Source: Chloropicon primus (Eukaryota; Chlorophyta; Chloropicophyceae; Chloropicales; Chloropicaceae). From it: DNA of 64,000 bases. The stretch lies in the NCBI GenBank assembly GCA_023205875.1, contig CP060767.1:124001-188000 (forward strand), in the 5' to 3' direction. The notes under the pieces are model-generated. The model saw only the letters and a program-made list of their open reading frames with translations, ran no database searches and was not told where the DNA came from. The translations under genes were made by a program, and so were the position numbers. Of the stretch, positions 1,578 to 63,230 are shown piece after piece. Every line of letters starts with the position of its first letter. Within the stretch, counting starts at the first letter, position 1.

Positions 1578-1640
1578 CCTCGCCAAGGGCACCAAATCCT
1601 TCGAGTTAGGGGTCAGCGGAAAGATCGAGAGACGAAGGTT
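1578..1640 (-). promoter_or_regulatory. Shared bipartite promoter element (carbonic anhydrase gene)
   Basis: Read on the minus strand it has CGTCTCTCGATCTTTC, then GACCCCTAACTCGAAGGATT and TGGTGCCC. It ends about 65 bases upstream of the start codon, in the sense orientation. Confidence 0.6.
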
Positions 1641-1870
1641 TCATCTGTATCCCCCTCCCTCGCCCCATCCATCCCAACCGCCCTCCCTTTCCTCCAAGGC
1701 ACGACAGTTACTCCACTCACCTCCCTCCTCTCGCTTTTCCCTGAGGTGCCTCCATCCCATAGACAATTCTTGAGAGGTCGAGCAGAGAGAGGTGAGTTTG
1801 GGTTTGATGGAGAGTTTGAGGGCAGAAGGACGGGAGAGAAGGATAAAGGTTTCGCATATAGGAATCGATA

Positions 1871-1921
1871 CATCTTACGATCTTTCTTTTAAGCCCTTTC
1901 TCGAACGATTTGGCGTCCTAT
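1871..1921 (+). promoter_or_regulatory. Shared bipartite promoter element (Costars gene)
   Basis: CATCTTACGATCTTTC, then AAGCCCTTTCTCGAACG and ATTTGGCGTCC. The core lies about 130 bases upstream of the Costars start, on the same strand. Confidence 0.6.
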
Positions 1922-2036
1922 GGAAGAATTGAGGCTGAAACAAAGTCTGTTCTCGTTTCTCGTTTGCGTTTGCTTGGTTGGTGTTTGATGGCAATAGCTA
2001 GTGTCGAGTTCTGAGGGGGAGAGAGAAGTTGAGGCA

Positions 2037-2315
2037 ATGGCGGACCACCAGGCTACAGTGGACAGGGAAGTTCTCGAGATCCAGAGAGACATCAAGCGCA
2101 TCGGCACTCAGAACGACGATGGAAACTTCACTGTGAAGTTCGGAGTTCTCTTCGAGGACGAGAAGGTGGAGCAGTACTACGAGGCCATCGTTGGAACGCT
2201 CAAGGCGGCGAAGAAGAGGGGCTTTATTGATTTCAAGGGACAGATGCTCTTGAAGGGGGCTCACGATGACGTGGACGTCATCTTGGTGAACGAGACGCTT
2301 CCCGAGAACGAGTGA
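2037..2315 (+). CDS. Costars-family protein (ABRACL-like)
   Basis: A single exon encodes 92 residues. The protein matches the Costars domain over nearly its full length: EIQRDIKRIG, then DGNFTVKFGVLFEDEKV, ALKAAKKRG-type helix (TLKAAKKRGFIDFKGQ) and a closing GAHDDVDVIL motif. In other eukaryotes this small winged-helix-like protein (ABRACL/HSPC280, and the C-terminal domain of STARS) is linked to actin and cell motility. The ATG at 2037 is the first one giving only the domain plus a short acidic helix. The gene carries the shared promoter element about 130 bases upstream. It converges on the first lipase gene. Confidence 0.88.
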   Translation: MADHQATVDREVLEIQRDIKRIGTQNDDGNFTVKFGVLFEDEKVEQYYEAIVGTLKAAKKRGFIDFKGQMLLKGAHDDVDVILVNETLPENE

Positions 2316-2506
2316 TTGGCCTCGGAGACACTTTCCTACTATTTCGTTCTCTTGTGTTATTCTTAATTCTTTCGTCTTCCTGGCCAAGCAGGCAAGAAGG
2401 CACGGGGATTATGGGTTATGGGTGTAAGTTATAGAGCTATAAGCGTTTGTCAAGCATTATGTGCGTTTCATGGATGAGGGCTGGAGCGGTTTCTCTCCTG
2501 GCCCTC

Positions 2507-3714
2507 TCACACGTTCACCCTCTCGAGGAACTTGATGGTCTTCTCGAGGGTCTTCTCATTGCCGGGCTCATGAATTAGCACGTGCCAGGATCCAGGGCAG
2601 TCCTCGTGGACCTTGATCTCGCTGGACGCCTCCGCCACCAGCCTGCGGGAGCCATCGGGATCCACCATCGTGTCCCCCTCGCTGTGGAAGGTCACGAACG
2701 GCAGCGTGATGCTCTTCAGGTTCTTCATGATGTGCTCAGTCACCCTGAGGTACTCTGCAGCGAGCCTCACTGGCGTGTTGCCGTGATAAGAAAAGAAATC
2801 CTTGTCAAACTCCTCCTGCAAGTTCGGGAATTTGCTTTTGTCCACCGCGGCGAGCCGCCACGTTGGCCCCACGCGGTTGAACAGATCGATCATTGGCTTG
2901 AGGTACGGGTTCAAGCCCTTCTTCGACACCCTCTCGAGCGACAGCATCGGGGCATAGAACAGGGCGGCCTTGAAGCGCTTCTCGTCCCGAAGAATCATCA
3001 TGGCCGCTCGCGCTCCGCCCATCGACACCGCGAAGGGGAAGACGGGCAGACCGGCCTCGAACCCCTTCCCGCCGAGGTCCGCCATCCTGTCCATGAAGGC
3101 AAGCTCGTCTGCAACGACGTTGTCGAAGCTCTCAAAGTAGCTCTGCAGTCCCTTGCACCCCTCCGACCTGCCCTTGCTCTGGACATCGATGCCGCAGCAG
3201 CTATACCCCCTGTTGTTGAGCTCCTCGATCCACGAGCCTCGATAGACTAGGGAGAGAAAGAGAGACGCGCCAAGAGAGTGTAAGCGAGGGTATTCTAAGC
3301 CTGACGGAGGGACCACGACTCACTTCTGTCGAATCCAGCACCCCGTGAGTTCTTTAAGAACTCGAAAGGAACGTTCGTGCCGTGACCGTGCAGCAGCAGG
3401 AGGATGCCCTTTGACTGCTTCGCCTTCGCGGGCCAAAAGTAGCTGAATATCTTGTACCCTTGGGCATTCTTCCACTGCTTGGTGAACCCGTGAGGCCCCT
3501 GAGGAAGAAACCGAAGAGACGACCAAAAGGCAACCCAATCGTCAGCTCATTCCCCTTGATTCCTCTGCCACCACTCTCCACTCACCAGTGTTTCCTCGTC
3601 CGGTTGCAGCTTCTCTTGCGGTGGCCACGGCGCTCCTTTGTTCCTGTGCGAAGACAGCGCGTAAGCGCCGAGGCCGACGAGCCCTGCCACGGCCACGCTC
3701 GCCCCCACTTGCAT
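2507..3714 (-). CDS. Monoacylglycerol-lipase-like alpha/beta hydrolase, copy 1 (membrane-anchored N terminus)
   Basis: Exons 3714-3586, 3498-3324 and 3246-2507 give 347 residues (splices CTG|gtgagt, cctcag|GGG, A|gtgagt and cctag|TC). The fold is serine hydrolase_4/lysophospholipase: LLLLHGHG oxyanion strand, nucleophile serine in AVSMGGA (the first Gly of GxSxG is Ala), Asp in EGDTMVDPDG and His in SWHVLIHEPG. The likely reaction is hydrolysis of monoacylglycerol or lysophospholipid esters. Exon 1 encodes a hydrophobic anchor (VGASVAVAGLVGLGAYAL) absent from copy 2, so this copy is probably membrane-bound. Exon 2 and exon 3 are close to copy 2 at the DNA level. The gene faces the Costars gene tail to tail. 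Confidence 0.85.
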
Positions 3715-3974
3715 CGTCGTCGTGTCGTGCTCTCTCTCTCTCTCTCTCTCTCCCTCTCCTGTAAGTAACGCTCGCTCGGGCGTTGGGGAGATGAGATGTT
3801 TTTTCGATCAAGCTTTCGGGGCAGAGGGAGAGGCCCCGAAGGAAGGAAGGGAAGGACATGTTCGGGCATTGGACCGTGGGCGTCGTTTGGTTGCTGGTCA
3901 TCCCTTGATCGTCCAGTGGGTGCCTTTTTACATTTTCTGTTTACATATGGAGTCTTTTCCTTGCCGAACGCTGC

Positions 3975-5061
3975 TCAAGCGTTCACCCTCTCGAGGAACT
4001 TGATGGTCTTCTCGAGGGTCTTCTCATTGCCGGGCTCGTTGATGAGGATGTGCCAGGATCCAGGGCAGTCCTCGTGGACCTTGATCTCGCTGGACGCCTC
4101 CGCCACCAGCCTGTGGGAGCCATCGGGATCCACCATCGTGTCCCCCTCGCTGTGGAAGGTCACGAACGGCAGCGTGATGCTCTTCAGGTTCTTCATGATG
4201 TGCTCAGTCACCCTGAGGTACTCTGCAGCGAGCCTCACTCTCGTTTTGCCTGCAACGGCGGGGGAAACCAGAAGAGGTGGGGGAGAGGGAATCAGTCAGA
4301 AGGGGGGCGTCCGCACGCGCACCACTCGCTCGTCGAAACTTACCCTGATCCGAGAAGAAGTCGTTGTCAAACTCCTCCTGCAAGTCTGGATACATGTGGT
4401 TCGAGTCCGCAGACGCGATTCGCCAGGTGGGCGTCGCAAAGTTGAACAGATCGATCATTGGCTTGAGGTACGGGTTCAAGCCCTTCTTCGACAACCTCTC
4501 GAGCGACAGCATCGGGGCATAGAACATGGCGGCCTTGAAGCGCTTCTCGTCCCGAAGAATCATCATGGCCGCTCGCGCTCCGCCCATCGACACCGCGAAG
4601 GGGAAGACGGGCAGACCGGCCTCGAACCCCTTCCCGCCGAGGTCCGCCATCCTGTCCATGAAGGCAAAGTCATCCGCAACGACGTTGTCGAAGCTCTCAA
4701 AGTAATTCTTGAGTCCCTTGCACCCCTCCGACCTGCCCTTGCTCTGGACATCGATGCCGCAGCAGCTATACCCCCTGTTGTTGAGCTCCTCGATCCACGA
4801 GTCCTTGTACACCCTCTCGATGCCAACTCCAGCTCCCTTTCTCGTCAGGAACTCAAAGGGAACGTTCACGCCGTGACCGTGCAGCAGCAGGAGGATGCCC
4901 TTTGACTGCTTCGCCTTCGCGGGCCAAAAGTAGCTGAATATCTTGTACCCTTGGGCGTTCTTCCACTGCTTGGTGAACCCGTGAGGCCCCTTTGCAGTCT
5001 CAGAAAGCTCGAGGCGATCTTGTGGAGGCCAAGGGTGCTGGTTGTTATCCAACTTTGGCAT
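3975..5061 (-). CDS. Monoacylglycerol-lipase-like alpha/beta hydrolase, copy 2 (soluble N terminus)
   Basis: Two exons, 5061-4344 and 4249-3975 (CAG G|gtaagt..ttgcag|GC), give 330 residues. The catalytic set is as in copy 1: HGHG, AVSMGGA, EGDTMVDPDG and SWHILINEPG. It lacks the N-terminal hydrophobic anchor and starts MPKLDNNQHPWPPQ, so it is probably soluble. Long stretches, such as the region around the nucleophile and the C-terminal 90 residues, are nearly identical to copy 1. The segment just before its single intron (SADSNHMYPDLQ) has diverged. This patchwork suggests tandem duplication with later gene conversion. It has one intron while copy 1 has two, and the positions differ. I find no shared promoter element near its start. 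Confidence 0.85.
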
Positions 5062-5788
5062 GCTGTCCTCTTTTCTGGTTGTGCAAAGTAATTCGTTTTT
5101 CTGTGTTTGCTGCTACTGCCAAACCCGAGTAGACCTGCTCCTCAACCTATGCTCCTCAATCACGAGGAAAGGAAAGAACGCAGAGAGTCAGGTCAGCTCA
5201 TCCTGCCTTGCCAACACAAACTCCTGGAACAATCTCTTCCAAGATTGTTCATCTTGGAACCCAAACGACTGGTTCCTTTCTCTCTCAAAGCAGGAAGAGA
5301 ATGCAGGAGGACGCATGGAGGGGAGCGTGAATGGCGGAGCTTACTTTCACGCTTCCCAGCCTTGCCCATACCAAGGGTGCCCCTAGCGTTCGAGAGACAC
5401 AGAGAGAGAGACACAGAGAGAGAGACCTTGTTGCTGTGACTCTGGTTTGTGTCTGAAAATCAGGATGACGAAGCAGGGGACAAATATCTCTCGAGGATGA
5501 TGGAAAACGACTGGCTTTGGAGTCTGTGTCTGAGGGAGGATCAGAGGGACGGGAGGGCAAGAAGGTGGATTGCTGCTCACCATCCTCACCGTGCCTTACT
5601 CCTCTCCTCCTCCTCTTTCGTTCAAACCCGTGCTCGAAAGTATTGGAGCAAGGCGAAAGGGGGAGGACTTGTGCTCGGAATGAATCTGCTCACCCATACT
5701 ATACTATGGATGACCTATTTATTCGTTTGGAAGTGGTTACTTTTTGTACGATTGCAGTGGCAGCCTATTCCCTGGCCCATCACACAAC
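5062..5788. other. Intergenic between lipase copy 2 and elongase A
   Basis: This stretch is upstream of the lipase and downstream of elongase A. It holds an AGAGAGACAC-type microsatellite near 5398-5426. No open frame with recognisable protein sequence and no shared promoter element were seen. Confidence 0.5.
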
Positions 5789-6895
5789 TTACTTGTTCTT
5801 TTGCTTCTTTCCACCTCCGCTGCTGAGGTACTTTTGGACGAAAAAGTTGCCGAAGAGGAAGAGGAGCGTGACCATGTACACGACGATGAGCTGGGACAGC
5901 CACTTTGGGTAGTCCGAGTAGAGCGTGCAGTAAACCCCCTGCGCCAGCATGGACAAGAATTGCGTCATCTGGAAGCTTGTCATGTAGCGACCCCACCACA
6001 AATACTTCCTCCTGAACCCTGGGCTATTCGAAGAGATGCTGGCCAGGTAGTAGTACGTATACATGGCGACGTGGACGAGCGAGTTCAGCGCCGCAGAGTA
6101 CCAAGCGTCACCACCTGGTGCGTAAAAAGCGATGGCCCACCAAATCAAGGAGATGGAGAGGTGGTGGTACACGTGCAGGAAGGACACCTGCTTCAAGTTC
6201 CCCTTCAAGAGCATGATGTACGTGTCAAAGTACTCGTACAGCTTGGAGATGTAGAAGATGTAGATACCCCTTGCCATGCCCACCTCCCTCACATCGTATG
6301 CTTGCCCCCAGAAGCTGTACTTGTTGACGTAGGCTTGATAGCAACTGTTCACGAACATGAACGAACTGAGAAGGATGAGGAAAACGTTGTGGAACTTCAC
6401 AAGCCTGTCGAGGTAGGCCGGCGTCTTCGTCTGCCCACCAGAGAGAGAGACAGAGAGACAGAGAAGAAGACAGAGATATCGTCAGTCAGAAGTTTGGACA
6501 CAACACGGCAGGGGGAAGGGAAGAAGCCCCTCCCAAACAACAACAGCAACAGCAACAGCAACCACCACCACCTGACAAAAAAACTTTTCTTCAAGAGAAG
6601 CCTGACCGCCTCTCCTCGTCGACTGAGACCCCCCGTCCGGGTCCTGACTCACCTTCTTGGTCTTGTCCACAGGAGTGATCGTGACCAGGCCAACTCCAAC
6701 AATGAAAAGGTACACGATGGCCCAAGTGACCAGTATCGTTGGCGTCCTGACAGCTGGCAAGTCCACCGTGTGCGGGCACGGCGTCTTCCTGATGTCCACA
6801 CCGAAGGCGGTCTGGATCACACCAAACACCGTGTCGGACACAGTGCCATCCCACTTGGCCCAATACACCTTGGCCAATTCCATGTACCCCTCCAT
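5789..6895 (-). CDS. ELO-family fatty acid elongase A (PUFA type)
   Basis: Exons 6895-6653 and 6430-5789 (AAG|gtgagt..gggcag|ACG) give 294 residues, the usual ELO length. This 3-ketoacyl-CoA synthase condenses malonyl-CoA with an acyl-CoA in the ER. It has the KFHNV-type box, SKLYEYFDT, the histidine box QVSFLHVYHH and the YMTSFQMTQF box. Glutamine at the -5 position of the histidine box is the pattern associated with polyunsaturated substrates. Multiple membrane segments are evident. The C terminus (KKQKNK) fits a KxKxx ER-retrieval signal. The ATG at 6895 aligns with the start of elongase B; ATG 6883 is an alternative. It is divergently paired with elongase B. Exact substrate (C18 delta-6, C20 delta-5 or C18 delta-9) cannot be told from sequence alone. 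Confidence 0.92.
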
Positions 6896-7909
6896 CCTTC
6901 TCGAACAATGCTGTCCAAGTACTCCTGGTTGCCAGCCAAATTCCTCCAACTCTGTCGGCCAATCCCCTTCACCTTTTTCGTCCAGACTCAATCCAAAGCT
7001 TCACTGAGGTCGCCTTTCGTCGATGGACTCGTCCTTGTGTTCCCAAAGATGCCACCTTTGCCGCTCCCTTGGCTCTCTCTCTCTCTCTCCCCCTCTGTCC
7101 TTGGCGGCTTGTGAGAGGGGAGCAAAGGACAGAGAGCAGAAGGAGAGCAGAGGGAGCAGAAGGAGAGCACAGAGATCAAGACGAATCGGAGGATAGATTA
7201 CAGGATAGAGGCTGTCGAGTTCAGTTCCTCCGAATCGAAAAGTGCTTTCGTTTTTTCTCGTGTTTTCTTTTCATCTGTCGCACGGGGAGAAAGGTTTCCT
7301 TCGCAGGCCCAAGGCCCTTTCCTTTAACCAAGACGAAGAGAGGAAGAAGCAAGAGAGCAAGAGAGGAGGAAGCACCAAGGCTCGGAGCACCAAGGAAACC
7401 TCTTCGTCCCTTTCCATCCATTCAAACCGTTCCAACCGTTCTTGTTCCTTCCTTGAAGAGTGGGACGAAAGGAAAGGAAAGGAAAGGAAAGGAAAGGAAA
7501 GGAACAAACAGAGGTGTCCGAGGAGTCAGGACGGTTGTCCTCAGGAGAGAGAAGGGGAAGGATTGGATCTCCTCCTCCTCGTCGTCCTCGTCGTCGTCGT
7601 CGTCGTCGTCCTTTAGGTTTGATTAACTTAACCCCCCTCGCCCTCGCCCTCTCGCCTCCTTTTTCCAAAATTCATTCAGCAGCAGTCAGCAGAGGAGGAC
7701 AGACCGAGCGCGCGCGCGGTCGAGGGCAAAAAAGCTCTGAAGCGGGCGGAACAAGAAGAGAGAGGGGCGGACGCTGGAATTGTTTTCTTGTCATCGATCG
7801 CGATCGAATCGATTGGGGTTTCAGGATATCTTCTTCTTCTTCTTCTTTTTGAAACACCAACAACTTTGCGACAAAGTTTCATCCCCGGGAGAGAAAACAA
7901 TAGAAGAGG
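6896..7909. other. Shared upstream region of the divergent elongases
   Basis: About 1 kb separates the two start codons. It is low in complexity: a (GGAAA)n run near 7466-7503, a (CGT)n run near 7585-7612, purine-rich AGCAGAAGGAG repeats at 7125-7170 and a GCGATCGCGATCGAAT-like patch near 7798. The shared bipartite promoter element is not evident. Both elongases probably start from within this block. Confidence 0.5.
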
Positions 7910-8945
7910 ATGCAGGAGGTTGTGCAAGTTGTGCAAGCCAAGTGGGCCGAGTGGGATGCAATCGTCGATCCCATCGTGTTCCAAGGGATCGAGAAGGTGA
8001 GTCAAGTCCCTCGCATCGTTTCCCTCCAAAGCCTCACCCACCAGCCGCCATCCTCCGTCCTCGTTTTTTTTTGTTTTTGTTTTGCTTTGCTCCATGGGAC
8101 TGACGGACGGACTTGCTCCTTGTCGTTGTTGTCGTGCTTGGCGTCCTCAGGTCTTTGGCGAGGACATTCGGAAGTACCCGTCCCTCGCGTTGCGCCAGCA
8201 GTCCAAGCTGATCCAATCGCCAACGCTCGTCGTGACGTCTTCCTTGTTCTATGTCTTGTTCGTGTCGGTGGCCAAGCTGGTGGTGAACCAGAAGCCCAAA
8301 GGAGCGAAGGATCCACAATGGTTGAAGAACTTGGTGTTCGTTCACAACGTTTTCCTGGTTGTTCTGAGCACCTACATGGCCGGAGGCATCGCTAACGAGG
8401 TGTACAAGAACGGCTACTCGCTCTGGGGATCTCCGTACAACGAGAAGGAGACGGAGCTCGCGAGGTTTTTTCTCATCTTCACGCTCTCCAAGCTGTACGA
8501 GTACTTGGACACGGTCATCATGGTCTTGAAGAGGAACATGTACCAGGTGACTTTCTTGCACTGCTACCACCACGTGTCGGTCTCCTTCTTCTGGTGGATG
8601 GCCTACTACATCATGCCTGGCGGAGAAGGTTGGCTCGGCGCCGCGCTCAACTCCTTCGTGCACGTGATCATGTATTCATACTACTTGCTCGCCACCCTGT
8701 CGAGCAACAACCCGAGCTTCAGGAAGAAGTATTTGTGGTGGGGAAGGTATCTCACAACGTTCCAGATGCTCCAGTTCGTCGAGAACGGCCTGCACTGCGT
8801 TTATATGCTGAGGAACAAGACGTACTCCGCGGTCATGGCAAAGTTCGGCGTCTACTACATGGTGACGCTCCTCTTCCTTTTCGGCAACTTTTTCGTCCGA
8901 AAGTACGTCTTGGGGGGCTCGAAGTCGAAAGCCAAGAGACAGTAA
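7910..8945 (+). CDS. ELO-family fatty acid elongase B (PUFA type)
   Basis: Exons 7910-7996 and 8151-8945 (AAG|gtgagt..cctcag|GTC) give 293 residues. ELO motifs in order are VFVHNVFL, SKLYEYLDTVIM, the histidine box QVTFLHCYHH, SFVHVIMYSYY and TTFQMLQF, with about seven hydrophobic segments. Glutamine in the histidine box again points to a polyunsaturated acyl-CoA substrate. The C terminus (KSKAKRQ) fits a KxKxx ER-retrieval signal. Elongases A and B share intron position and many blocks (both carry YMVTLLFLFGNFFV near the end), so they are paralogues from a duplication that ended up head to head. They have diverged enough to suppose different chain-length or unsaturation preference. Confidence 0.93.
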
Positions 8946-10132: not shown

Positions 10133-10707
10133 GAGAGAAAAACCTATCTCCTCCTTGGAAAACCTCACGACGCAGCGCCACGCTCGTTGTGTACTGCGTC
10201 AAGTGAGACACCGTTGGAAAGTCCGCGAAAAGAACTTTCGATTCACGTTGCCCTCCTTCCCTCTTCCCCTCTTCCCCTCGTCCCCTTCATCCATCCAACT
10301 CCATCCTTGTCGCAGGACTCGCCTCCTCCATGAACTGGGCTCTGACAAAACCCTGAAGAAGATAAGGAGTTGAAAACGCGAGTGAGAATTAACGCCCGGG
10401 TTCGTCGCGCAACAAGGGAGAGGGAAGGTGTTGTTGTCGAGGACTTTGTGCACGGACGGGGACGGCGAAGGGGAGGAGGTGTGGAAAGAACGGAAGCGCG
10501 TCTCAAGGGCTTTCGATTGATACCGCGGCTGAAGGTTTTGGCGCACGGAGTGGTCCTCCGCTCGCTCGCTCTCTTTGCTACGACAGGCGTTACAGGAGGA
10601 GGTTGCCTCGAAGTTTGTTTCGTGAGTTGTTGGCTCGGTTGTGTGACGAGGAAGAGGAGGCAAGTCTTCGTCGAGCAGTGCAGTGTTGTGCGGTGCTTTG
10701 TTTCATC
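10133..10707. other. Divergent intergenic region, trmB / HARE-HTH gene
   Basis: It holds the shared promoter element for the plus-strand gene at 10498-10550. A weak minus-strand likeness (GGACTTTCCAACGGTG, then CACTTGACGC) lies near 10205-10235 for trmB. Nothing else was recognised. Confidence 0.45.
10498..10550 (+). promoter_or_regulatory. Shared bipartite promoter element (HARE-HTH gene)
   Basis: CGCGTCTCAAGGGCTTTC, then ATACCGCGGCTGAAGG and TTTTGGCGCAC. It lies about 160 bases before the ATG. The TTTTGGCGC tail looks like an E2F site. Confidence 0.55.
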
Positions 10708-12183: not shown

Positions 12184-12282
12184 GGTGGGCATTGTAGCCA
12201 TCAGCCATCTAATCTGCGCAGAGAGCAAACCTACCATCATGTGAGACTGTGTAAAAAGATGTAGATTTTAAGTGAATTCAAA

Positions 12283-13878: not shown

Positions 13879-14480
13879 TCCTTCACAAAACTAACCCCTC
13901 CTTCCACCGAAGAAGAATCCCGACACAGCGACAGACACCAGCGTAACCGACGCCGAGGGACGTTACCACGGCCACCGCTGACCCCTTGCTCCTCCCCGCG
14001 ATCGATCCCTTCGCCGCTTCGGCGAGCGAGTGGAGGATGAAGGTGACAAAGGGTGAAGGCGGTGAAGAAGAATGAAGAATGAAGAATGAAGAAGAAGAAG
14101 AAGAAGAAGAAGATGAAGAATGAATGAATGAAGAGGCCTTGCGCGATGGATCTAAGACGAACGTGAACGAGGTGTTCGACACCGGCACGATCGATCACTA
14201 AAGCCGCCGCTGACCCGACCCCTTCTCCTCCGTTCGTCGATGTCAACACCGATCGCTCAAGATCGATCCCCAAGATGTAGCAGAATCGATCGGATCGATC
14301 GGGAGGAGAGAGGGAGAGACCAGGGAGGAAGAGGGCAGCAGAGAGGAGGAGGAGGAGGATTAGGGCGGAGGGGGAAGGGCTAGTGCGATACTACGTCTTC
14401 CGATCTTTCGATCGATACGATTCTACCCTTGGTCGACGGATTTGTCCATCGAATGAGCAGCAAACGGCCAAGGACACACA

Positions 14481-14522
<42 letters not shown>

Positions 14523-14810
14523 CTCAAGTGTCTTCGAGGAGGAGTGAAGGACGGTAGAGAGGAGAAGGAGGTGCTGTATCTTTCGCGATCTTTCGATCGG
14601 TACGATTCTACCCTTGGTCGACGGATTTGTCCATCGGTTAGGGAGGAGCAGAAGCTCTTGGATGTTGTCGTCGTCGTGCCAGTGAGCTCGGTTCGGTTTG
14701 TCCATCGGTCGGTTGAAGGGGAAGGCAGAGAGGGCGTTCGGCAGGCAGCCTCACGGCGCGTTTGACTCGTCGCCACACGAAGTTTCGATCGGTAGCAGCT
14801 CGCGAGGACG
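13879..14810. other. Intergenic between CobW GTPase and REV7 genes
   Basis: Contains (GAA)n near 14087-14113, a (CA)n(GA)n tract at 14476-14521 and a tandem pair of promoter units described separately. A GGACGTTACC-like patch near 13955 lies before the GTPase start. No gene was recognised. Confidence 0.5.
14390..14640 (+). repeat. Tandem promoter units of 185 bp upstream of REV7
   Basis: Two copies of GATCTTTCGATCG, then TACGATTCTACCCTTGGTCG and ACGGATTTGTCCATCG start at about 14402 and 14587, 185 bases apart. A third partial copy (GTTTGTCCATCGGT) is at 14697. They are sense-oriented to the REV7 gene, whose ATG is 200 bases after the second copy. Confidence 0.65.
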
Positions 14811-15360: not shown

Positions 15361-15396
<36 letters not shown>

Positions 15397-15997: not shown

Positions 15998-16809
15998 AAG
16001 AAAGAGAGGAAGGCCTGCATGTGGAGGAGGCCCATCCATCCTATGCATCCTATGCTTATGGATTGACTTCTCTTCCCTGCTCCTTAACTTCATGAACAGA
16101 ATTTTGGAAGTAGTTGACCACCCGCCAAGAAAAAGAAGAGAGCGAGAAAGAGACAGTGAACAAAGTATTTAGCACTGACCTGGCCAGGCCTCCCTTCTTT
16201 GGTTTCTTCTTCTTCCCCCTCCCTCCAGGCTCTCTCTCTCTGTGTCTGTCCTCGGAACTGGACAGCTTCCTCGTTTCCAGTTAATGAAAACTCGAGGAAA
16301 GGGGGGCCATTGGAAATGTTCCTCTCGGCGTGGGGGGTTAACAAGGAGAATCTATTGCGGAAATGTTGAGGGGGTACGGATCCCACGGACAACGCGGAGG
16401 TCTGGGTTGACAAAGCCCATTTGGCCTAGGAGACCAAGACGAGGTGAGTTTGGCACAATTGGGGTCGAACCTCTTGACCAAGACGGCAATAGGAGCATAA
16501 CAGTGCGGGAGTTCGCCTCGTTCTCTTTCGTTTGACTCCTTTCTCGCCAAAAACGGTCCACTGAAGCCTCCATTGTTTTCGCTTCCATTTGGGTCAGCAC
16601 AGGTGCACAGTGCCAAGGGAAAGACCTTGAAGACCTACCAGAAGGTGGAAGAGAGCGGAGGAAGGTTGACTGTGGGATCGTCTCGAGTCAATTGTGGCTT
16701 CCCTGGAACTTGAGCAAACCTTTCTTCTGTTGCGAGGACTTCCAGCACTTGGTCCAGATACGATTCCATTCCCTTTTGGTTTGTGATTGATTTTGACTTG
16801 GTCTGCACG
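15786..16809. other. Intergenic between REV7 and SHIPPO genes
   Basis: About 1 kb. It holds a (CA)n(GA)n tract at 15944-15995. A possible 5'-UTR intron of the downstream gene runs from GACGAG|gtgagt near 16444 to gcacag near 16600. No coding frame with recognisable sequence and no good copy of the shared promoter element were seen. Confidence 0.45.
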
Positions 16810-17748: not shown

Positions 17749-18554
17749 CGGAGAACAGGGACAGGGCAGGAGGAGGGGAGTCTTTAGGTTTTGGTTGGAC
17801 TCGAAACTCTCTCAATTATCTCTGACTTGCGTTTTAATCGAGATTATACCATAGTTCTATAACTCTTGGACTGCAGAAACCTCCCTTCATCACCTTTTTC
17901 CTCCACTCCTCCATCCAATGAAAAGGTCTTCCGAGGAGAAAAAGGAGAAGAGGAAGGGATAGAACACGAGTGAAGAGGAGATGATACTGAATCCCCTCTC
18001 CTCCCCTTCCTTCCCTTCCTCATCATCCCCATCACCCCTCATCACCATCCATCCCCTCCCCTTCATCACCTTTTCCCTTCAATCCAAAGGAAAAGGTCTG
18101 CAGAGAGGAGAGGCGATTGGGGAGGCGATCGAAGGGCGCCGCTTCGCGAGGATTTGGGCGTCGAGGAGGGGCAATAGGAACGGAAGTGGAGATCGTAGAA
18201 CGACAGTGCGTCTCGTGAGCTTTCTGGCGATACCTTGGTTGACTCTTTTGGCGCAGGGAAAGCCTCGAACGGACCCGGGGGAGGCGATCAAGGGCAGAGG
18301 AGAAGTGAGGAGAAGAGGACGAGGGGAGGGAAGGGCGAGGACGAGGGATCCAGGGGCCTTAGGCGCGAGGAGGAAGCGTTTTGGATCGACAGGACAGGAC
18401 TTGTCCCGAGCTTTCTGGAGATACCAATATCGGTTGTTTTGGTTCGGTCACGACAGATTGAATTGAATTCAATTGAACTGAACTGAACTGAATTGGATCG
18501 AGTTGAGGAGGAGACTGTGTCTGCGCTGGTATACGCAGAGTAGTCCGTGGCGCG
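17749..18554. other. Intergenic between SHIPPO and DPH6 genes
   Basis: Contains two copies, 176 bases apart, of a block starting CTTCATCACCTTTT (17885 and 18061). The second forms an inverted repeat ACCTTTTCC/GGAAAAGGT. The promoter elements of DPH6 follow at 18207 and 18400. A GAATTGAATTCAATTGAACT-like run precedes the start codon. No gene seen. Confidence 0.5.
18207..18447 (+). promoter_or_regulatory. Two shared promoter elements, 191 bp apart (DPH6 gene)
   Basis: First copy 18207-18257: GCGTCTCGTGAGCTTTC, then GATACCTTGGTTGACTC and TTTTGGCGCAG. Second, weaker copy 18400-18447: GTCCCGAGCTTTC, then GATACCAATATCGGTTG. Both are in sense orientation, 110-300 bases before the ATG. Confidence 0.55.
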
Positions 18555-24120: not shown

Positions 24121-24185
24121 ACAAATCCTTCACCAGGGCGTCAAACCCTTGGACCGAGGGCTCCTTCGAAAGAGAATAGGACAAA
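24121..24185 (-). promoter_or_regulatory. Shared bipartite promoter element (RING gene)
   Basis: On the minus strand: TCTCTTTCGAAGGAG, then CCCTCGGTCCAAGGGTTT and GACGCCCTGGTGAAGG. It lies 60-125 bases upstream of the ATG. This 330-base gap between genes holds nothing else. Confidence 0.6.
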
Positions 24186-24394
24186 GGTTCCATCTTTGTC
24201 CCTCCCTTTCGTGCTCCTCGTCTTCCACCTCGTCCACGGCTCACCTTCTCCCTCTCTCTCTCTCTGTGTTGGGTGATTGGTAATGGCGAAGACAAAAGAA
24301 AAAAGGGTTTCATCTGTCTGGTCTGTCTGTTACAGAAGATTGTCCTCCTCCGATGAATGGAGGGGAGTTTTGATACATTGCAGGGAGCTTGAGC

Positions 24395-27958: not shown

Positions 27959-28212
27959 CAAAACTCCTCACCAGGACGCCAAAATCGTTCGAGGGAGAGC
28001 TCTGTGGAAAGAGAAGGAGACCACAGAGACTAATCTTCCGCGAAGTCCCCCCCACTCGGCACGAAACCCTCCCCTCTGCCGCCAAAGAGTGAGACAAGTT
28101 CTTACCTCTTGGTCTCTCCTCCTGGGTGTCAAAGTTTTCAAGGTCTAGGAAGGCTCCCAACCTCACCAGGACGCCAAATCGTTCGAGGGAGAGCTCTTTG
28201 GAAAGATAACGA
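27959..28212 (-). repeat. 254-bp promoter/leader repeat, copy 1 (kelch gene)
   Basis: Nearly identical to the plus-strand stretch 46971-47223. It holds two promoter elements 194 bases apart (cores at about 28205 and 28011): CTTTCCAAAGAGCTCTCCC, then TCGAACGATTTGGCGTCC and TGGTGAGG. Between them is AGAGGTAAGAACTTG, a donor-like site. It is sense-oriented to the kelch gene. Confidence 0.8.
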
Positions 28213-28470
28213 GACCACGGAGACTAATCTTCCGCCAATCACTCATCTTTTCCACTCACTCCATCGTCTTGGCCCCTTCCAAGGACTCGCCTGCTTCAGT
28301 CTGTCACACAGCGTTTGAAACCGATCGATTTTTGTGGAAAAATTGTCCATGGGATGAGACGCGTCCTGGGGGCTTCGCTCCTCGAAGGAATCGGAAGAGG
28401 TACGCGACTTGAGAGCCAAAGCAAGGACGAGGAGGGAGTCGGAGGGGAAGGGGGCGCGGATGGATGGAAC

Positions 28471-28540
28471 CGCCGTCTCACGATCTTTCCAACGACCATT
28501 CGTGCGAAAGGAATGACAAAGTTTTGAGGATGATGAGAGA
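28471..28540 (+). promoter_or_regulatory. Shared bipartite promoter element (thioredoxin-like gene)
   Basis: CCGTCTCACGATCTTTCC, then GACCATTCGTGCGAAAGG, AATGAC and a GAGGATGATGAG end. It lies about 40-105 bases before the first ATG (28578). Between the kelch leader (28212) and here I see nothing else. Confidence 0.6.
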
Positions 28541-36608: not shown

Positions 36609-36668
36609 GAACCGCGTCAAAACCTTCGACCGAGGGCTCTTTCGAAAGAGAAAGACACGAAGATTCCG
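36609..36668 (-). promoter_or_regulatory. Shared bipartite promoter element (KIN17)
   Basis: Minus strand: GTGTCTTTCTCTTTCGAAAG, then AGCCCTCGGTCGAAGG and TTTTGACGCGG. It lies 50-108 bases upstream of the ATG. Confidence 0.62.
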
Positions 36669-37075
36669 ATTGTGTTCCTACCCCCTGTTATGCGTCCCTC
36701 TACCGCCTCCCCTTGCGCTCGTTCTCCCCCTCCCTCCCCCCTCCCTCTGTCGATCCCCAAACCTCTTCCGTGTCCTCAAATCCTCACCACTGGGTCAAAT
36801 CTTTCCAACAAGGTACCGAACGAAAGATCTCGAGACGTAGCTTCCCGTCGTAACGCTTTCCGTCCCTCCCGGAGCCGTTACGTTGCCTTAATCCTTCGCC
36901 GAACCTCCTGAACCGCCTCCCTCTCCCGCAGGAGCCTCTCCAGTGTTCTGTTCTGGAGAGAAGGGAGGAGTGATCCAGTTCCGAGGGATCCAGTGGAAGC
37001 GAGCGGCGGTTTTCGTACGGAAGAGATCGCGAGGGAGAAGACAGGAAGAGGTCGGAGGGAGGAGATCACGTTAGA

Positions 37076-37130
37076 GTATCTCACGATCTTTCGTTTGAGC
37101 CCTCGGTTGCCATTTTTGGCGCGTCACAAG
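37076..37130 (+). promoter_or_regulatory. Shared bipartite promoter element (EEP gene)
   Basis: GTATCTCACGATCTTTCG, then GAGCCCTCGGTTGCC and ATTTTTGGCGCG. It lies 60-115 bases upstream of the ATG. Confidence 0.62.
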
Positions 37131-38225: not shown

Positions 38226-38671
38226 TCCACCTCTCCTCCTGTTCGTACAACAACACTTCAACACACGTCGAAAGCCTGCTAGGGCTATCCTCAACCCCTT
38301 CCCTGTCCTTGTCCCCAGCAAGGGAGGGCTCATCGGAAAGGGGAAGAGGCGGAGGAAGACGAGGCAGCAGTTCCACCTGCAAGTGCTGGCACCCTCCTCC
38401 TCCTCCTCCTCCTCCTCCTCATCATCATCATCATCATCATCATCACTCCCCTCCTCGATCCAACCCCTCTGCTGCTCAATCGAAAAGAGGAAAGAGGCGG
38501 AAGACAAGGCAAGGAGGCAGTGGTTCTTGTTGGGAGGCAGAGACAAGAGAGGGGCGGAGCTCGTGAAGGGGGACCACCGCATCGATCGAAAGATCTTTTC
38601 AAGACCTTTCCATCGACACCCTTCATCACCTGTTTGGTTTGGTTGTCCTTGAAGGCATTGAACCAAAAAGG
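38226..38671. other. Intergenic before the molybdoenzyme gene
   Basis: Holds (TCC)n(TCA)n at 38395-38446, and a weak promoter-like patch GATCGAAAGATCTTTTC followed by GACCTTTCCATCGACACC at 38583-38620. No gene. Confidence 0.45.
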
Positions 38672-42601: not shown

Positions 42602-42748
42602 TGTTCTGCATCATCATGATAAGAGAGAAGGGGGGCTGAGTTGTCGTCGTGTAGAATTATTGTCGTCGTTATTGAAACCCACATACATTATCTATAATCT
42701 ATAAATATAAATATAATCGTTGTCAATCGACCCGACAATATGATCATT

Positions 42749-43128
42749 AGGATGGCGGACGAGAGCATCCATCAGCCTCCACCCCTCCACTGTGAGGATG
42801 ATTGAGGATGGCGGACGAGAGCATCCATCAGCCTCCACCCCTCCACTGTGAGGATGATTGAGGATGGCGGACGAGAGCATCCATCAGCCTCCACCCCTCC
42901 ACTGTGAGGATGATTGAGGATGGCGGACGAGAGCATCCATCAGCCTCCACCCCTCCACTGTGAGGATGATTGAGGATGGCGGACGAGAGCATCCATCAGC
43001 CTCCACCCCTCCACTGTGAGGATGATTGAGGATGGCGGACGAGAGCATCCATCAGCCTCCACCCCTCCACTGTGAGGATGATTGAGGATGGCGGACGAGA
43101 GCATCCATCAGCCTCCACCCCTCCACTG
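42749..43128. repeat. 56-bp minisatellite, 6.8 copies
   Basis: Unit starts AGGATGGCGGACGAGAGCAT, continues CCATCAGCCTCCACCCCTCC and ends ACTGTGAGGATGATTG. Copies start at 42749, 42805, 42861, 42917, 42973, 43029 and 43085, exactly 56 bases apart, with no differences that I can see. The last is cut after CCACTG. Near-perfect identity means recent expansion or homogenisation. An internal GAGGATGATTGAGGATGG gives a short sub-repeat. Confidence 0.95.
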
Positions 43129-43289
43129 GCATTCATTGCAGACTTTTACTTCATTCTCCGATCGATCGATCAGTTTGGGTGGCTAGGAGCGCGCCGTCAC
43201 CAGGAACAGAAGGAGGTAAGTTTCACGAGGAGGGCGAGAACGAGAACGCGACGCGAGGGGAGGACGAGAACAAGTTATCGATGAAACCG

Positions 43290-43346
43290 TTGTGTCGTGA
43301 GGTTTCCGTCGACCCCTCACTCGAAAGAAATGACGTCATGAGGAAG
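43290..43346 (+). promoter_or_regulatory. Shared bipartite promoter element (ABCF gene)
   Basis: TGTCGTGAGGTTTCCG, then TCGACCCCTCACTCGAAAG and AAATGACGTCATGAGG. The last part contains a perfect CRE/bZIP-type TGACGTCA. It lies 90-145 bases upstream of the ATG. Confidence 0.58.
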
Positions 43347-46821: not shown

Positions 46822-47483
46822 CAATGCTCCATCATCGCCACGTGCGTGATTTATGGACATTTGATGATCAAGGGAGGCCAAGGTGAACGAAGAGGTAAGA
46901 CTTGTCTCACTCTTTGACGGCAGAGGCGAGAGTTTCATGACAGGTGAGAGAATTTAGCGGAATAATTGTTTCGTTATCTTTCCAAAGAGCTCTCCCTCGA
47001 ACGATTTGGCGTCCTGGTGAGGTTGGGAGCCTTCCTAGACCTTGAAAACTTTGACACCCAGGAGGAGAGACCAAGAGGTAAGAACTTGTCTCACTCTTTG
47101 GCGGCAGAGGGGAGGGTTTCGTGCCGAGTGGGGGGGACTTCGCGGAAGATCAGTCTCTGTTGTCTCCTTCTCTTTCCACAGAGCTCTCCCTCGAACGATT
47201 GGGTGTCCTGGTGAGGAGTTTTGAGTCCCAAAAGTTTGGTTCTGACTCTCCCCTCCAAGCTTTGGCAGAACTCTGCACGACGAGGGAGCTGGGCGCGTAC
47301 TGGCAGGACGGAGGCAAGAGCGCGAAGAGAGGGATGGCTAAGGCTGGTCGGCGGACGCGATTATGACTGCGGAGGGGTACTTTGAGTGAAAGGCCAAGGC
47401 GGTAGACTCGGTTTCGTTAGGCTGGTGTTGGAAGACCAGAGAACCAAAGGCTGCTGCTGGGGGGACAAGGTGGCAGAGCCACC
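46822..47483. other. Divergent region DUF482 / RWP-RK-like gene
   Basis: Dominated by the tandem promoter/leader units (from about 46885 to 47223). Start of a third, more degenerate unit (GAGGTAAGACTTGTCTCACT) is at 46889. No gene. Confidence 0.55.
46971..47223 (+). repeat. 254-bp promoter/leader repeat, copy 2 (RWP-RK-like gene)
   Basis: Nearly identical to 27959-28212 on the minus strand. Promoter cores at 46978 and 47172 (194 apart). Donor-like AGAG|GTAAGAACTTG at about 47076 and acceptor-like CTTTCCACAG ending at 47180. Sense to the downstream gene. Confidence 0.8.
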
Positions 47484-51380: not shown

Positions 51381-51872
51381 CCTCCCCTTGACCTAAGACC
51401 TCCCTGTCTGATCACGGATCTCCCTCGCTCTCTCCTCGATCGATCATGACATGATGATCATGCCAGGAACTGGAGGTTCAAAAAACCAGGAGGGAGGAGG
51501 GGAGGAGCACTTTGGGGTGGTGATCAAAGCGGATCAATGGCGGGGAGAGATCAGGGGGGAACAATGTCGGGTGTATCGTCTCACGATCTTTCGAACGCGG
51601 TCTCGCTTCAAGGAATTGGTGCCATGGAAGGTTCACAACGATCGCGATGGAGCTGATGGATGGAGGAGCTCGAGCTCGGGGGAGGAGGGCTTTGGGGTGG
51701 TGATCAAGGCGGATCAATGGCGGGGAGAGATCAGGGGGGAACAATGTCGGGTGCGTCGTCTCGCGATCTTTCGAACGCGGTCTCGCTCGGCCCCTTGATG
51801 TGTGAAAGAGCTAATGGTACATGACTGTTTACGGTTTTTTTAAAGCGTGACTCGACAAGGATTCTTCTTCAT
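51381..51872. other. Region upstream of TM9SF, downstream of NDK7
   Basis: Holds the orphan tandem promoter pair described separately. No plus-strand gene follows it directly and no other gene is seen. Confidence 0.5.
51503..51788 (+). repeat. Orphan tandem promoter units (180 bp) antisense to NDK7
   Basis: Two copies of a block of about 105 bases: GGGGTGGTGATCAAAGCGGA, then AGATCAGGGGGGAACAATGT, CGTCTCACGATCTTTCGAAC and GCGGTCTCGCT. Core positions are 51588 and 51768. The orientation is plus, but the genes on both sides are on the minus strand. Confidence 0.75.
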
Positions 51873-52997: not shown

Positions 52998-54170
52998 GAT
53001 TTCTGATTTCTCTCCGATTCTTTCCCTTGCTCTTGCGAAACTTGACAAAGCTTGTTCTTCTTCTTGTTGTTTTTGATCCGAGTCAAAGGATGACTTTGAA
53101 ACTTTGAGGACAGAGGCAAACAAGTTGGTTCACCTTTACTTGGTTGACCGAAGCAATCAAACAAACAAACAAACAAACAAACAATCAATCAACGCAATGT
53201 CTTCTCCCCTTCCTGGTGAAAGCAATGAATGCAAGAGTGGACTCGGGCTCTCTCGTGACGGAACCGCCAAAAGGTTCTTGCACAAATACTCGTGTCAACG
53301 ACGTTTTGTTGTCCTCAAGGCAAAGGCACGAAAGGGAAAAAAGGCTCGGGGCTCGTTTGAGAACCAAAACTTGAGTGAGGCTGCCAATAGTGATGTTTGG
53401 AGCAATGTGTGATGCCAAAGATGCTCCCTCCTCGGGGGCGGTGGTCTTGTCCTCGTCCTCTCTCGTCCTGGCGCACTCGGCTGTTTGATGCGTCTTGCCC
53501 TCCGCAGTCGTTGGTCAATTCCTTGTCAAACGTTCAGTCGTTCAAAGTATTCCACGAAAGACGTACCCTTTCGAGCGGAACAGACTCGCTTCGAATTAAG
53601 ACAATACGATGAACAGGGTAACGTCGTGGAGTGTGAAATGAGAGACCTGCCCTCAAGACGCGTTTAGAGAAGAAAAACAAAAGTTTTTGTTTTCAGAAAA
53701 CGAAAGGACTCGTTTTCAGAGTGTAATCCAAAATCATCCAAAAGCTAAAATCCTTCCCCCAAAGGTTTGGTTTGGGTTTCTGTCCGGTCGAGTGGGCGGC
53801 TTTGAGGACCGATTGGTGGGAGGGGGCGCCTTTGGAAGGTTTAGGAGCAACCAGGATCGAAAGTACGTCTCTCGGGCTTTCCATTGACCCCACGGATGCC
53901 CCAGACTTCGTCGCGAAACATCAGGGTATACGGTTTTCCAGCAGCAGAACTTGGGTGGGCTGGCTTTTGTGGGTTAGCTTGCCGAAGCAAAGGGCAAGGG
54001 GGCGAGAGGAAGGCGGCAGGAGGTGAAGGCGGTCACGGGCCGCGATAGGAAACTGCGCCGATTGGTCCAAGGTTCCATCTTTGAGCCCGTTTCGGCCAAA
54101 CCAAGCCAGGAGGTAGAGAGAATATACTTTGGGGACACAGAGGGAGCTTTCGAGAGATAGGCGAGGGAGT
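52998..54170. other. Intergenic between NDK7 and WDR54-like genes
   Basis: 1.17 kb. Holds an (AAAC)n run at 53156-53182 and two promoter units before the WDR54-like gene. Nothing with recognisable coding content was seen. Confidence 0.45.
53863..54100 (+). promoter_or_regulatory. Two shared promoter elements about 200 bp apart (WDR54-like gene)
   Basis: First at 53863-53910: ACGTCTCTCGGGCTTTCC, then ATTGACCCCACGG and ACTTCGTCGCG. Second, weaker at 54056-54100: GGTTCCATCTTTGAGCCCGT and TTCGGCC. Both are in sense orientation; the second is about 75 bases before the ATG. Confidence 0.5.
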
Positions 54171-56397: not shown

Positions 56398-56440
<43 letters not shown>

Positions 56441-57256
56441 GCCATTCCATCATCACAACATCATCCATCCCAGGAAGGAGAAGAAAAAAAAAACACTTTG
56501 GTCAGCCTCTCCAATCCTCACCCTTGGGTCGTTTCTCTCGAGGGAGGGGTCAAACGAAAGCTCGCGACACGAATCTTCGACTGATTGTGCCGCAACACGC
56601 ACTGCCCTCGTCCCTCTCCTCTTGCAGACGCCTGAAAGACTCACCCCTCTTCGCCTCCCTTCGCCGCCGCAGAGCTTTTCTCAAGTTTTGGATAAAATGA
56701 AAAATTTTCCGCCACAAAAAAGTTGAGAGTTGTATTCGATGTAAAGACTATTATTGAGTGTATGAAACATGCCAAGCAAGCCAAGTTCTGCAATTGCAAG
56801 GAGACGTGGTCGATGTGTGTCGCGCCTTGCCTCCCCTCCTCCATGCACGCACGCACGCACGCACATGCGCACACTCTCCCCCTCTCTCTTTCCTCACCCT
56901 CTCCCTTTCCTCCAAACTTGGAAGGAGGAGTTTCTCCCTTCGGACTCTCCCTTCGGACTCTCTCCTTGGAAGAGTTCAGGAGGAGTTCAGGATGGAAACC
57001 AAAGCAAAGCAAAGCAAAGCAAAGCAAAATGTCCATCATCGTGCGCACACGGACGATACCTCACTTCACTTCACTGGGGTGTTCCCCTGAGCAAGGCAAG
57101 GACCTTGATCGTCGTCTTGCAGGAGGGCCTTCCTCTCTTGGGTGTAAGGAGGTCTACTCTTGGGTGTCCTCTGCTACTAGAGACGAGTCACTTTACAACA
57201 AGTTACAACAGCAGGCAGCAACGCAGCAAGGTCTTGACCTTTGTCGCTCTTGTGAG
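56398..57256. other. Divergent region uS17 / PH-like gene
   Basis: Begins with (TC)n at 56398-56436, then the uS17 promoter element. A (GCAC)n run lies at 56843-56862, an imperfect repeat of TCTCCCTTCGGACTC at 56934-56962 and (AAAGC)n at 57000-57027. No gene recognised. Confidence 0.45.
56512..56584 (-). promoter_or_regulatory. Shared bipartite promoter element (uS17)
   Basis: Minus strand: GTGTCGCGAGCTTTCG, then TTTGACCCCTCCCTCGAGAG, AAACGACCC and AGGGTGAGG. It lies 115-185 bases upstream of the ATG. Confidence 0.6.
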
Positions 57257-57526: not shown

Positions 57527-57557
<31 letters not shown>

Positions 57558-59602: not shown

Positions 59603-59767
59603 CGAGTCGAAAGAGCCCTCTCGTGGATGTACGCACAGAAAGAAAGAAAGAAAGAAGCAACTTGTAGACAAAATCGGAAATGTAAAACATTACTTGTCAC
59701 TTCTACTGTTACAACGCGTGCCATCGCTGCTTGGGCTTGATTCAGAGATGACAAAAGAGTCCCTTTG

Positions 59768-62140: not shown

Positions 62141-62494
62141 CTCTCCAACTCTCTCTCTCTCTCTCTCTCTGCGCGCGTGCTCGAGACGGAGGACTTTCGG
62201 GCACACCGCTTCGCCTCGTGCCTTTTGCGTTGGTTTTCAAATCAACCCACGCCAGCAGTTCCCTGTGGTGATGATGGGATGAATTAACTCGTGCGGGTTC
62301 CTTCCATTCTTCTTCGCTCTTCTCGTAAAGGTACGACGCGAGGAGGTGAAAACGAAGGAGGAGACCTTTCCGAGGCCCTCTCCATGCTTCAGCTCATATC
62401 TTCCCTCGTCGTCATCCGAAAAAGAAAACCTTTCATGCCCATCCAAAAAAAAGAAAAAGAAAAAAAAAACAGAGCAACGTTTCAGGTCGTCATG

Positions 62495-62556
62495 TCCTCA
62501 AAACTGCGTCGTTTTTTTCGACCGAAGAGTCTTTGGAAAGATTAGAACGTAACGCT
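62495..62556 (-). promoter_or_regulatory. Shared bipartite promoter element (PP4R3)
   Basis: Minus strand: GCGTTACGTTCTAATCTTTC, then CAAAGACTCTTCGGTCG and AACGACGCAGTTTTGAGG. It is about 355 bases upstream of the ATG, the longest gap seen, so a 5'-UTR intron is likely. Confidence 0.55.
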
Positions 62557-62805
62557 CTGATTGATCCTCTCCAACAAACGCGCCGACCTCTCGTTCGTCG
62601 TCCATTCCACTCGGCGTACTCACCTCTCCCTCCTCGTCCACCCCGAAGTCACGAGGTTGTGGTTTTAGGTGTACGAGATCTGAGGCTCTCAGCTCTTCAG
62701 CGAGCGGGCGGCGGGTGACGTCGATTACGGAGACGTGAAACAAAGGTGAGTGGAGGACGAGGAAGGTAGGGAGGAAGAAAGAGGGTGGGACTGACGGAAG
62801 AGTCG

Positions 62806-63230
62806 TGTCGTGATCTTTCCAAAGACCCCTCGTTGGAAGATTTTGACGCCGTAATGAAGTTTTTAGAGACTGAATGGTGGATGCCGTTTCGTTTTTTTAT
62901 TAGCTGGCCTTGGACGGAGGGAGAGACAGGTGAGTGGAGGAGGAGGACGGGGAGGGGGGCGAACGAGGGGGAGGGGACCGGAACCTTCGTCTGTTACTCT
63001 TTCTTTCGACCCCTCGGTCGAGGATTTCGACGCCTTGGGTGAGGGTTTTGAGGGAGATCTGTCCGTCCTGAAAGAGGGAGAGAAGAGGGGGAAGAGGGAG
63101 GGCGACAGAAGGCGGGGGAGAGGGCGACGGGGACGGTCGGGGTGCTGGACCGGGACGAAGCCTTCGGAATCATCGTCTTCTCCTCTTTCTTTCGACCTCT
63201 AGGTCGAGGATTTCGACGCCGTGGTGAGGA
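62806..63230 (+). repeat. Three tandem promoter units (187 and 186 bp apart), desaturase gene
   Basis: Cores at 62816, 63003 and 63189: CTTTCCAAAGACCCCTCG, CTTTCGACCCCTCGGTCG and CTTTCGACCTCTAGGTCG, each followed by AAGATTTTGACGCC or AGGATTTCGACGCC. Donor-like CAAAG|GTGAGTGGAGG and GACAG|GTGAGTGGAGG occur at 62749 and 62929. The third core is about 120 bases before the ATG. Confidence 0.7.

Follow-up and report, generated by a model that had tools for sequence, protein, structure and literature searches.

To our knowledge, little has been described of core promoters in deep-branching green algae. TATA-less core promoters of metazoans combine an initiator (Inr) with the motif ten element (MTE) and the downstream core promoter element (DPE), on which TFIID docks. 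MTE covers +18 to +29 and DPE +28 to +33, with strict spacing to the initiator (PMC8461331). In the oomycete Phytophthora, a composite block of initiator and flanking promoter region (INR+FPR) is lineage-specific, lacks a TATA box and is well conserved in about 13% of genes (PMC3599244). The Pr77-hallmark of trypanosomatid retrotransposons is a dispersed 77-nt sequence with a downstream core promoter element (PMC4748587), and in Micromonas and Ostreococcus, 5-methylcytosine and N6-methyladenine (5mC/6mA) mark the linkers between nucleosomes, with nucleosome period, after start sites (PMC12695648). Here we describe an element of about 70 bp that recurs in a 64-kb stretch of the green alga Chloropicon primus RCC138 (contig C14, positions 124001-188000, hereafter the window) and elsewhere in the genome. 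It is rather likely to be a double-stranded-DNA promoter module for a subset of the genes of C. primus, set at nucleosome-like spacing and absent in other chromosome domains.

The Chloropicon element shares with Inr + MTE/DPE promoters the rigid spacing, the dependence on orientation, the lack of a TATA box and a similar overall size. CTTTC, part of its core, resembles the TCT initiator. If the first C of CTTTC is taken as +1, which is an assumed start, TCGAA...GRCGC falls at about +20 to +36, near MTE/DPE (PMC8461331). In contrast to these promoters, the Chloropicon element is much longer, has a stricter consensus, is reiterated every 180 bp and is limited to chromosome domains, and we would regard the resemblance as a likeness, not as membership. 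By its description, the INR+FPR block of oomycetes is likewise lineage-specific, TATA-less and composite, but it is 16-19 nt long and tied to mapped start sites. The Pr77-hallmark differs in being part of retroelements at strand-switch regions; none were noticed beside the Chloropicon copies inspected, although no search was aimed at retroelements. The prasinophyte linker marks are base modifications downstream of starts, whereas the period in Chloropicon is in the sequence and lies upstream of the gene. A word search of the available text of both Chloropicon genome papers found 'promoter' in neither, and 'motif' 0 times in one and once in the other, there on RWP-RK proteins (PMC12301720, PMC6731263); among the titles listed in searches of non-subscription literature, none was on such an element. 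Our findings point to an undescribed kind of gene switch that is limited to certain chromosome regions. In so compact a genome, a 70-bp rule readable from the sequence, with nucleosome-like repeats and domain limits, would help to show directly how chromosome regions, nucleosomes and start sites are connected, and the element could supply ready promoters for work on deep-branching green algae.

A nucleotide profile seeded with 15 copies and then iterated detected 28 copies in the window at an expectation value (E) <1e-4 (Table 1); three weaker matches (38621-, 18391+ and 38348-) were left out of this count. A second model found 25 window copies at E <=0.01. An earlier first-pass annotation, made from the sequence of the window, had reported a two-part signal at about 20 places. 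That a recurrent signal exists was borne out, since its first half had 19 matches versus 1.84 expected and its 18-mer second half 5 versus 0.09 (up to 3 mismatches); its number is higher.

The element has the form of a nearly ungapped unit, GGAAGCGTCTC..TCTTTC-N4-GA(G/C)CC(C/G)TCG(C/G)TCGAARGAWWYGRCGC..TGGTGAGGATTTGAGG, which includes an upstream part GGAAnC and ends downstream at GGTGAGGATTTGAGG. We aligned 25 chosen copies, 18 of the 28 in the window and 7 from other contigs, with insert-bearing and some partial ones omitted. The alignment was free of gaps across 70 columns. TTTC was invariant, and the C before it, the GA past N4, the C and T of CCCTCG, the GA of TCGAA, the first G of GRCGC and the two T of GTCTC were nearly so. 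In a set of 62 copies the information spanned about -18 to +47, with the first C of CTTTC as 0; this set was found with a model trained on the 25 chosen copies, which makes the profile partly self-fulfilling. The first-pass annotation had placed 4-10 variable bases between the two halves. This region is instead CTTTC-N4-GA(C/G)-CC, and a 9-base insert was observed there only in the pair at 14.4 kb. Elsewhere, three other copies have 9 additional bases farther upstream, and the copy at 5.6 kb has an insert downstream. The right-hand piece GTGGTGAGGATTTGAGG occurs at 49 places genome-wide with at most one mismatch (reversed control 0). A listed core lies within 300 bp of 17 of these places, and in 12 of them the piece starts exactly 36 bp past that core. 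With the ungapped alignment and this fixed offset, the two parts and the gap are therefore a single rigid element.

The genome searched comprised 17,584,162 bases in 20 contigs, the largest of 1,855,637. C. primus RCC138 has 20 chromosomes (PMC12301720), and the sister strain CCMP1205 has a compact genome with about half an intron per gene (PMC6731263). The control for each short pattern was the same pattern reversed, searched genome-wide. A 27-place core with at most 3 mismatches was found 746 times versus once for the reversed pattern. Exact 18-place cores CTTTCNNNNGANCCNTCG numbered 397 (109 + 266 + 22; controls 1 + 0 + 1), and their lists are complete for C1 to C8. The pattern CTCGAAGGANNYGRCG, with 22 places versus 2 in the control, was too rare to be useful. 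In the window the 27-place core recovered 12 copies and the profiles 25-28. The core pattern thus misses about half of the profile copies there, and the genome probably holds well over a thousand members of the family. The profile found 4 copies at E <=0.001 and a fifth at 0.011 in a 40-kb piece of C6. At E 0.01 it found nothing in a 200-kb stretch of C1 after Markov shuffling (three versions) or reversal, and no exact match to the element was present in the viral_contigs collection.

The first-pass annotation had further described the signal as orientation-locked, facing a start codon on its own strand. Consistently, the start of a sense open reading frame (ORF) of at least 150 amino acids (aa) lay 30-450 nt downstream of 15 of 25 window copies, versus 4 of 25 in the opposite direction (random 0.14, p 2e-7). 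With ORFs of at least 100 aa the counts were 16 and 8 of 25 (random 0.28, p 2e-4). On C6, three of four copies had a sense ORF start (>=150 aa) and one of four an opposite one. We also inspected 17 loci of 1 kb from 17 contigs, which were 17 of 55 exact core places and were picked by contig, not by flanks; a sense ORF of at least 100 aa was present at 13, and the rate for random C1 pieces of the same geometry was 0.30. Equal occurrence inside genes, which the annotation had named as a sign against its proposal, was not seen in the window, where 5 of 25 copies lay inside ORFs versus 16.8 expected at random, nor were both strands used equally, as the sense and opposite counts show. There were 41 proximal copies followed by an ORF of >=60 aa, and in 29 of these the core-to-ATG distance was 60-200 nt. 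The smallest distances were 60, 65 and 71 nt (loci L039, L031 and L036), besides one outlier at -21. As the element extends to about +47, transcription in these three loci should start inside it, before it, or a few bases after it.

The sequence around the copies was also characteristic. In the 59 copies of the sequence examined in detail, the sense strand upstream of the element was purine-rich, with a purine fraction of 0.69-0.76 from -100 to -20, dropping to 0.53 at -140 and 0.37 at -200 (random 100-mers 0.50 +/- 0.10). This turn was present even in the 27 copies without a listed neighbour. TATAWA was found within 100 bp of the core in none of the 59 copies, and element-free C1 promoters are likewise mostly without it (2 of 86 with TATAWA).

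Copies often stand in groups. In the sequence examined in detail, all 15 same-strand neighbours within 1 kb were 163-194 bp apart, six of seven divergent neighbours were 244-280 bp apart (typically about 260 bp) and one 400 bp, and there were no convergent neighbours. Among the genome sites listed (at least 284), all 23 same-strand neighbours within 1.5 kb were 154-193 bp apart, with one divergent pair at 284 bp and no convergent one. Pairs of CTTTCNNNNGANCC were counted 94 times at 159-189 bp (reversed control 3), 11 times at 190-220 bp (1) and 9 times at 128-158 bp (0). These 114 spacings had a mean of 176.6 bp, a standard deviation of 11.3 and a mode of 175-185; none was below 140 or above 204 bp in the searched range of 128-220, and 34% were divisible by 3. 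A module from -131 to +52 would fit both distances in the sequence examined, since head-to-tail abutment gives 183 bp and back-to-back abutment 262 bp. This reiteration near 180 bp and the purine tract go beyond the earlier annotation.

Some of these groups were evidently copied. The two copies in front of the kelch gene lie in segment 27931-28215, of which an inverted duplicate (285 bp, 94% identity) is found at 46968-47244, ahead of the RWP-RK-like gene. Pairs at C8:491501 and C8:539189 share their first 80 letters, and C13:443014-443564 holds four copies at 177-178 bp. The duplicated inverted segment, the recurring pairs and the four-copy array indicate that promoter segments were duplicated and moved and that small tandem arrays grow. 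Diverged pairs hold the same spacing, which favours constraint over mere descent as its cause. At C7:500099, telomere-like repeats (GGATTA units) stand directly past a core copy at a chromosome-internal position.

The element is unevenly distributed over the chromosomes. In C1:300001-500000, a stretch picked before any site map existed, no copy was found at E 0.01 (best match E 0.022) despite 93 non-overlapping ORFs of at least 150 aa, and short core words were near the reversed-control level. The largest core-free stretches on C1-C8 measured 977, 881, 592, 539, 509 and 426 kb. In a first simulation with 126 clusters, the largest random gap topped 977 kb at least once in 2000 sets (maximum 1,033 kb). 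With a fuller union of sites (140 clusters) the gaps were unchanged, and none of the six ranks was attained by any of 5000 random placements. The first five gaps add up to 3.50 Mb versus 1.52 +/- 0.17 Mb at random, a sum reached in 0 of 5000 placements; five of the largest gaps make up 19.9% of the genome. Only 1 of 35 right-half sites outside listed cores falls in those gaps (p 0.004). None of 94 pair clusters does, but there is some circularity in this count, as a stricter form of this core had served to define the gaps. The density of pair clusters declines with chromosome length (Spearman -0.82), and C1-C6, half of the genome, hold 11 of the 94 clusters. Enrichment of 7-mers and 8-mers in 80 upstream regions of C1 gave mostly GA-rich, low-complexity words in place of another motif, a weak result because this crude test missed the element in the window as well. 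The GC content at third codon positions (GC3), CpG and strand runs did not separate C1 from element-rich stretches. C1 ORFs were longer, with a mean of 485 aa versus 347 and 343 in element-rich stretches. This domain restriction is the least explained part of the picture. Within the same C1 stretch, C1:450001-460000 (L021) contains an inverted repeat of about 2.1 kb (3225-5360 / 6163-8310, 95% identical) plus an outer pair of 81%.

As a mechanism, we propose that the module would span about -131 to +52, counted from the first C of CTTTC, with about 100 bp rich in sense-strand purines followed by the rigid 70-bp element, and that the element would be placed directly at the transcription start, possibly overlapping it, or a short way upstream. 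TCTTTC, GANCCNTCG, TCGAA and GRCGC may be bound, and their fixed spacing read, by a factor of several subunits; the simplest candidates would be a TFIID-like complex or a lineage-specific protein. Extra modules would be stacked upstream. Because they keep a distance of roughly one nucleosome, each of them probably takes up a single nucleosome repeat. The interval of about 180 bp between tandem copies suggests one module for every nucleosome, the module length appears close to the nucleosome repeat, and nucleosomes may be phased by it. Promoter activity of the module would then serve a subset of genes, and genes of the other chromosome domains would do without the element. An extended version, which we hold only tentatively, is that the genome has two promoter compartments, one with the 180-bp module once per nucleosome, above all on small chromosomes, and one of megabase domains with another initiation mode and possibly different general factors.

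Several observations weigh against a promoter module of this kind. With non-overlapping ORFs of at least 120 aa the orientation bias was weaker, 11 of 25 copies versus 8.0 +/- 2.3 for random intergenic places, with 4 of 25 when strands were flipped; introns and short first exons weaken any ORF-based position test here. The core-to-ATG distance is measured to the longest ORF in range, whose start is sometimes not the true one, and for KIN17 another frame was chosen. The first-pass annotation let all copies but a pair at 51.5 kb face a start codon. That exception stands (the 51.6-kb pair of Table 1), but the 5.6-kb copy faces no long ORF either, and a 50-aa ORF is all that lies in range of the 14.4-kb copy. 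ATG was not depleted past the core, with 6.5-9.6 per kb in three bins from 0 to +150 and 2.0-9.8 in six upstream bins, so the start site cannot be placed by an upstream-ATG proxy. Conserved positions showed no significant 10-bp periodicity (p 0.18). Weak copies (E 0.002-0.005) are involved in two of the seven divergent pairs and in one tandem pair. Since many tandem arrays arose by recent duplication, the spacings within them cannot be counted as independent.

Other explanations have to be compared with the promoter module. The first-pass annotation had proposed a general core promoter of the whole genome. Exact or near-exact cores do occur on all 20 contigs and pairs on 18 of 20, and copies precede genes of unrelated families; the gene-rich 200 kb of C1 without a copy and the large core-free domains of several chromosomes, into which hardly any independent right-half site falls, make this very improbable. 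The earlier reading was therefore supported in part, as a promoter-type DNA element, orientation-locked and placed before unrelated genes, and not as a general architecture. A dispersed repeat of about 180 bp, MITE-like (miniature inverted-repeat transposable element) or driven by gene conversion, could also have spread into promoters, its strand and position reflecting insertion preference or selection, with a promoter role being unnecessary. The inverted 285-bp duplication before two unrelated genes, the shared 80 letters on C8, the many tandem arrays listed and the enrichment on small chromosomes all agree with it. Diverged copies, however, keep their internal spacing and their position to genes, and 27 of the 59 copies lack a listed neighbour in the sequence examined; terminal repeats or target duplications were not noticed in a self-comparison, though no search was aimed at them. 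We regard such a repeat as unlikely, but as the most serious of these alternatives.

Spacing near the nucleosome repeat, the narrow divergent distance and the higher density on small chromosomes, where meiotic recombination is often denser, would also suit a nucleosome-positioning, insulator or recombination element at gene starts that carries no initiation signal. Orientation towards the gene and a short ATG distance are unusual for insulators or hotspots, and we consider this quite improbable. The conserved sequence might instead act in a transcribed 5' leader, as a short peptide (an LSKEPSLERND-like frame) or as an intron of the 5' untranslated region (5'-UTR) that starts at GTGAGG. One sense frame has fewer stops (17/1419 codons versus 47/1419 and 38/1358), yet an antisense frame has 9/1359; some copies start with ATGGAACC or ATGAAACC. 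The peptide or upstream ORF, first noted by eye, was ruled out by in-frame stops in 16 of 62 copies, the lack of a conserved start codon and tandem spacings that are not multiples of 3. The intron was ruled out as a general reason for the conservation of GTGAGG, because in L031 and L035 the ATG follows about 25-40 nt past it, too close for an intron. RNAalifold on the 25 copies predicted 0 pairs, that is, no consensus RNA fold. We give a leader signal of this type hardly any probability.

Table 1. Copies of the element in the 64-kb window (gene labels as discussed in the text).
Feature	Position	Strand	E	Remarks
Element copy	1584..1655	-	2e-16	Faces gene labelled carbonic anhydrase by first-pass annotation; divergent partner of 1868, core distance 259
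Element copy	1868..1927	+	1.7e-11	Faces gene labelled Costars by first-pass annotation
Weaker copy	5604..5667	+	3.3e-8	Faces no long-ORF start; nearest long ORF 5789-6358 on other strand
Partial copy	10197..10253	-	3.9e-7	Faces ORF 9176-10132, Pfam Methyltransf_4; missed by second model
Element copy	10484..10548	+	6.6e-11	Faces HARE-HTH ORF
Copy with 9-base insert, first of tandem pair	14373..14457	+	5.3e-12	
Second of tandem pair	14562..14642	+	9.1e-9	189 bp on; direct repeat 14401-14451 / 14586-14636; missed by second model
Element copy	16493..16563	+	3.9e-9	Faces ORF 16810-17748
Element copy	18188..18258	+	7.7e-11	Faces DPH6 ORF
Element copy	24128..24204	-	2.2e-17	Faces ORF 23279-24061
Proximal copy of tandem pair	27965..28052	-	4.5e-13	Faces kelch gene
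Distal copy of kelch pair	28160..28240	-	8.9e-16	194 bp upstream
Divergent partner of kelch pair	28456..28531	+	4.2e-14	280 bp core to core
Proximal copy	36613..36678	-	7.1e-16	Faces KIN17
Distal KIN17 copy	36781..36852	-	9.6e-16	178 bp upstream
Divergent copy	37073..37122	+	5.1e-9	262 bp; faces EEP-family ORF
Weak partial copy	38579..38620	+	5.4e-5	Before xanthine-dehydrogenase-like ORF; missed by second model
Element copy	43276..43346	+	3.2e-14	Faces ABCF ORF
Distal copy	46948..47023	+	5.5e-17	Faces RWP-RK-like ORF
Proximal copy	47131..47217	+	2.7e-13	194 bp on; RWP-RK-like gene
First of pair facing no long-ORF start	51556..51626	+	1e-13	
Second of 51.6-kb pair	51736..51789	+	2.3e-9	180 bp on
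Partial copy	53845..53891	+	4.1e-7	Faces ORF 54171-55802
Element copy	56514..56585	-	1.7e-15	Faces S17 ORF
Element copy	62495..62572	-	1e-11	Faces PP4R3
First of three tandem copies	62783..62860	+	1.3e-17	Divergent from 62572 copy, 275 bp
Second of three tandem copies	62967..63038	+	1.5e-13	184 bp on
Third of three tandem copies	63157..63230	+	1.7e-14	186 bp on

The genes behind the copies were checked by a Pfam scan of 40 window ORFs. Among the names given by the first-pass annotation, HARE-HTH, DPH6, kelch, KIN17, EEP, ABCF, S17 and PP4R3 were backed by Pfam, and the RWP-RK match was present but under its own cut-off. The labels carbonic anhydrase, Costars and desaturase stand as that annotation gave them. 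A thioredoxin ORF exists, yet it starts 0.7 kb past its element copy. The ORFs called RING (23279-24061) and WDR54 (54171-55802) had no match at 0.001, no REV7 match was found among the 40 ORFs, and ORF 16810-17748 contains SHIPPO repeats. The Pfam families differ from gene to gene, in agreement with the earlier statement that these genes are functionally unrelated.

Some other features of the window were recorded. Two adjoining serine-hydrolase (Hydrolase_4) genes (2507-3500 and 3974-4991) are 91-97% identical in three pieces and represent a recent duplication. Direct repeats of about 267 bp with 86-89% identity lie within the HARE-HTH ORF (11015-11781), and a tandem repeat of about 56 bp, with copies 96-99% identical, lies between the xanthine-dehydrogenase-like and ABCF genes (42742-43128). 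An unbroken ORF of 406 aa at 45344-46564 matches FemAB_like (PF04339, E 6e-142), which Pfam describes as a peptidoglycan biosynthesis family, and is perhaps of bacterial origin.

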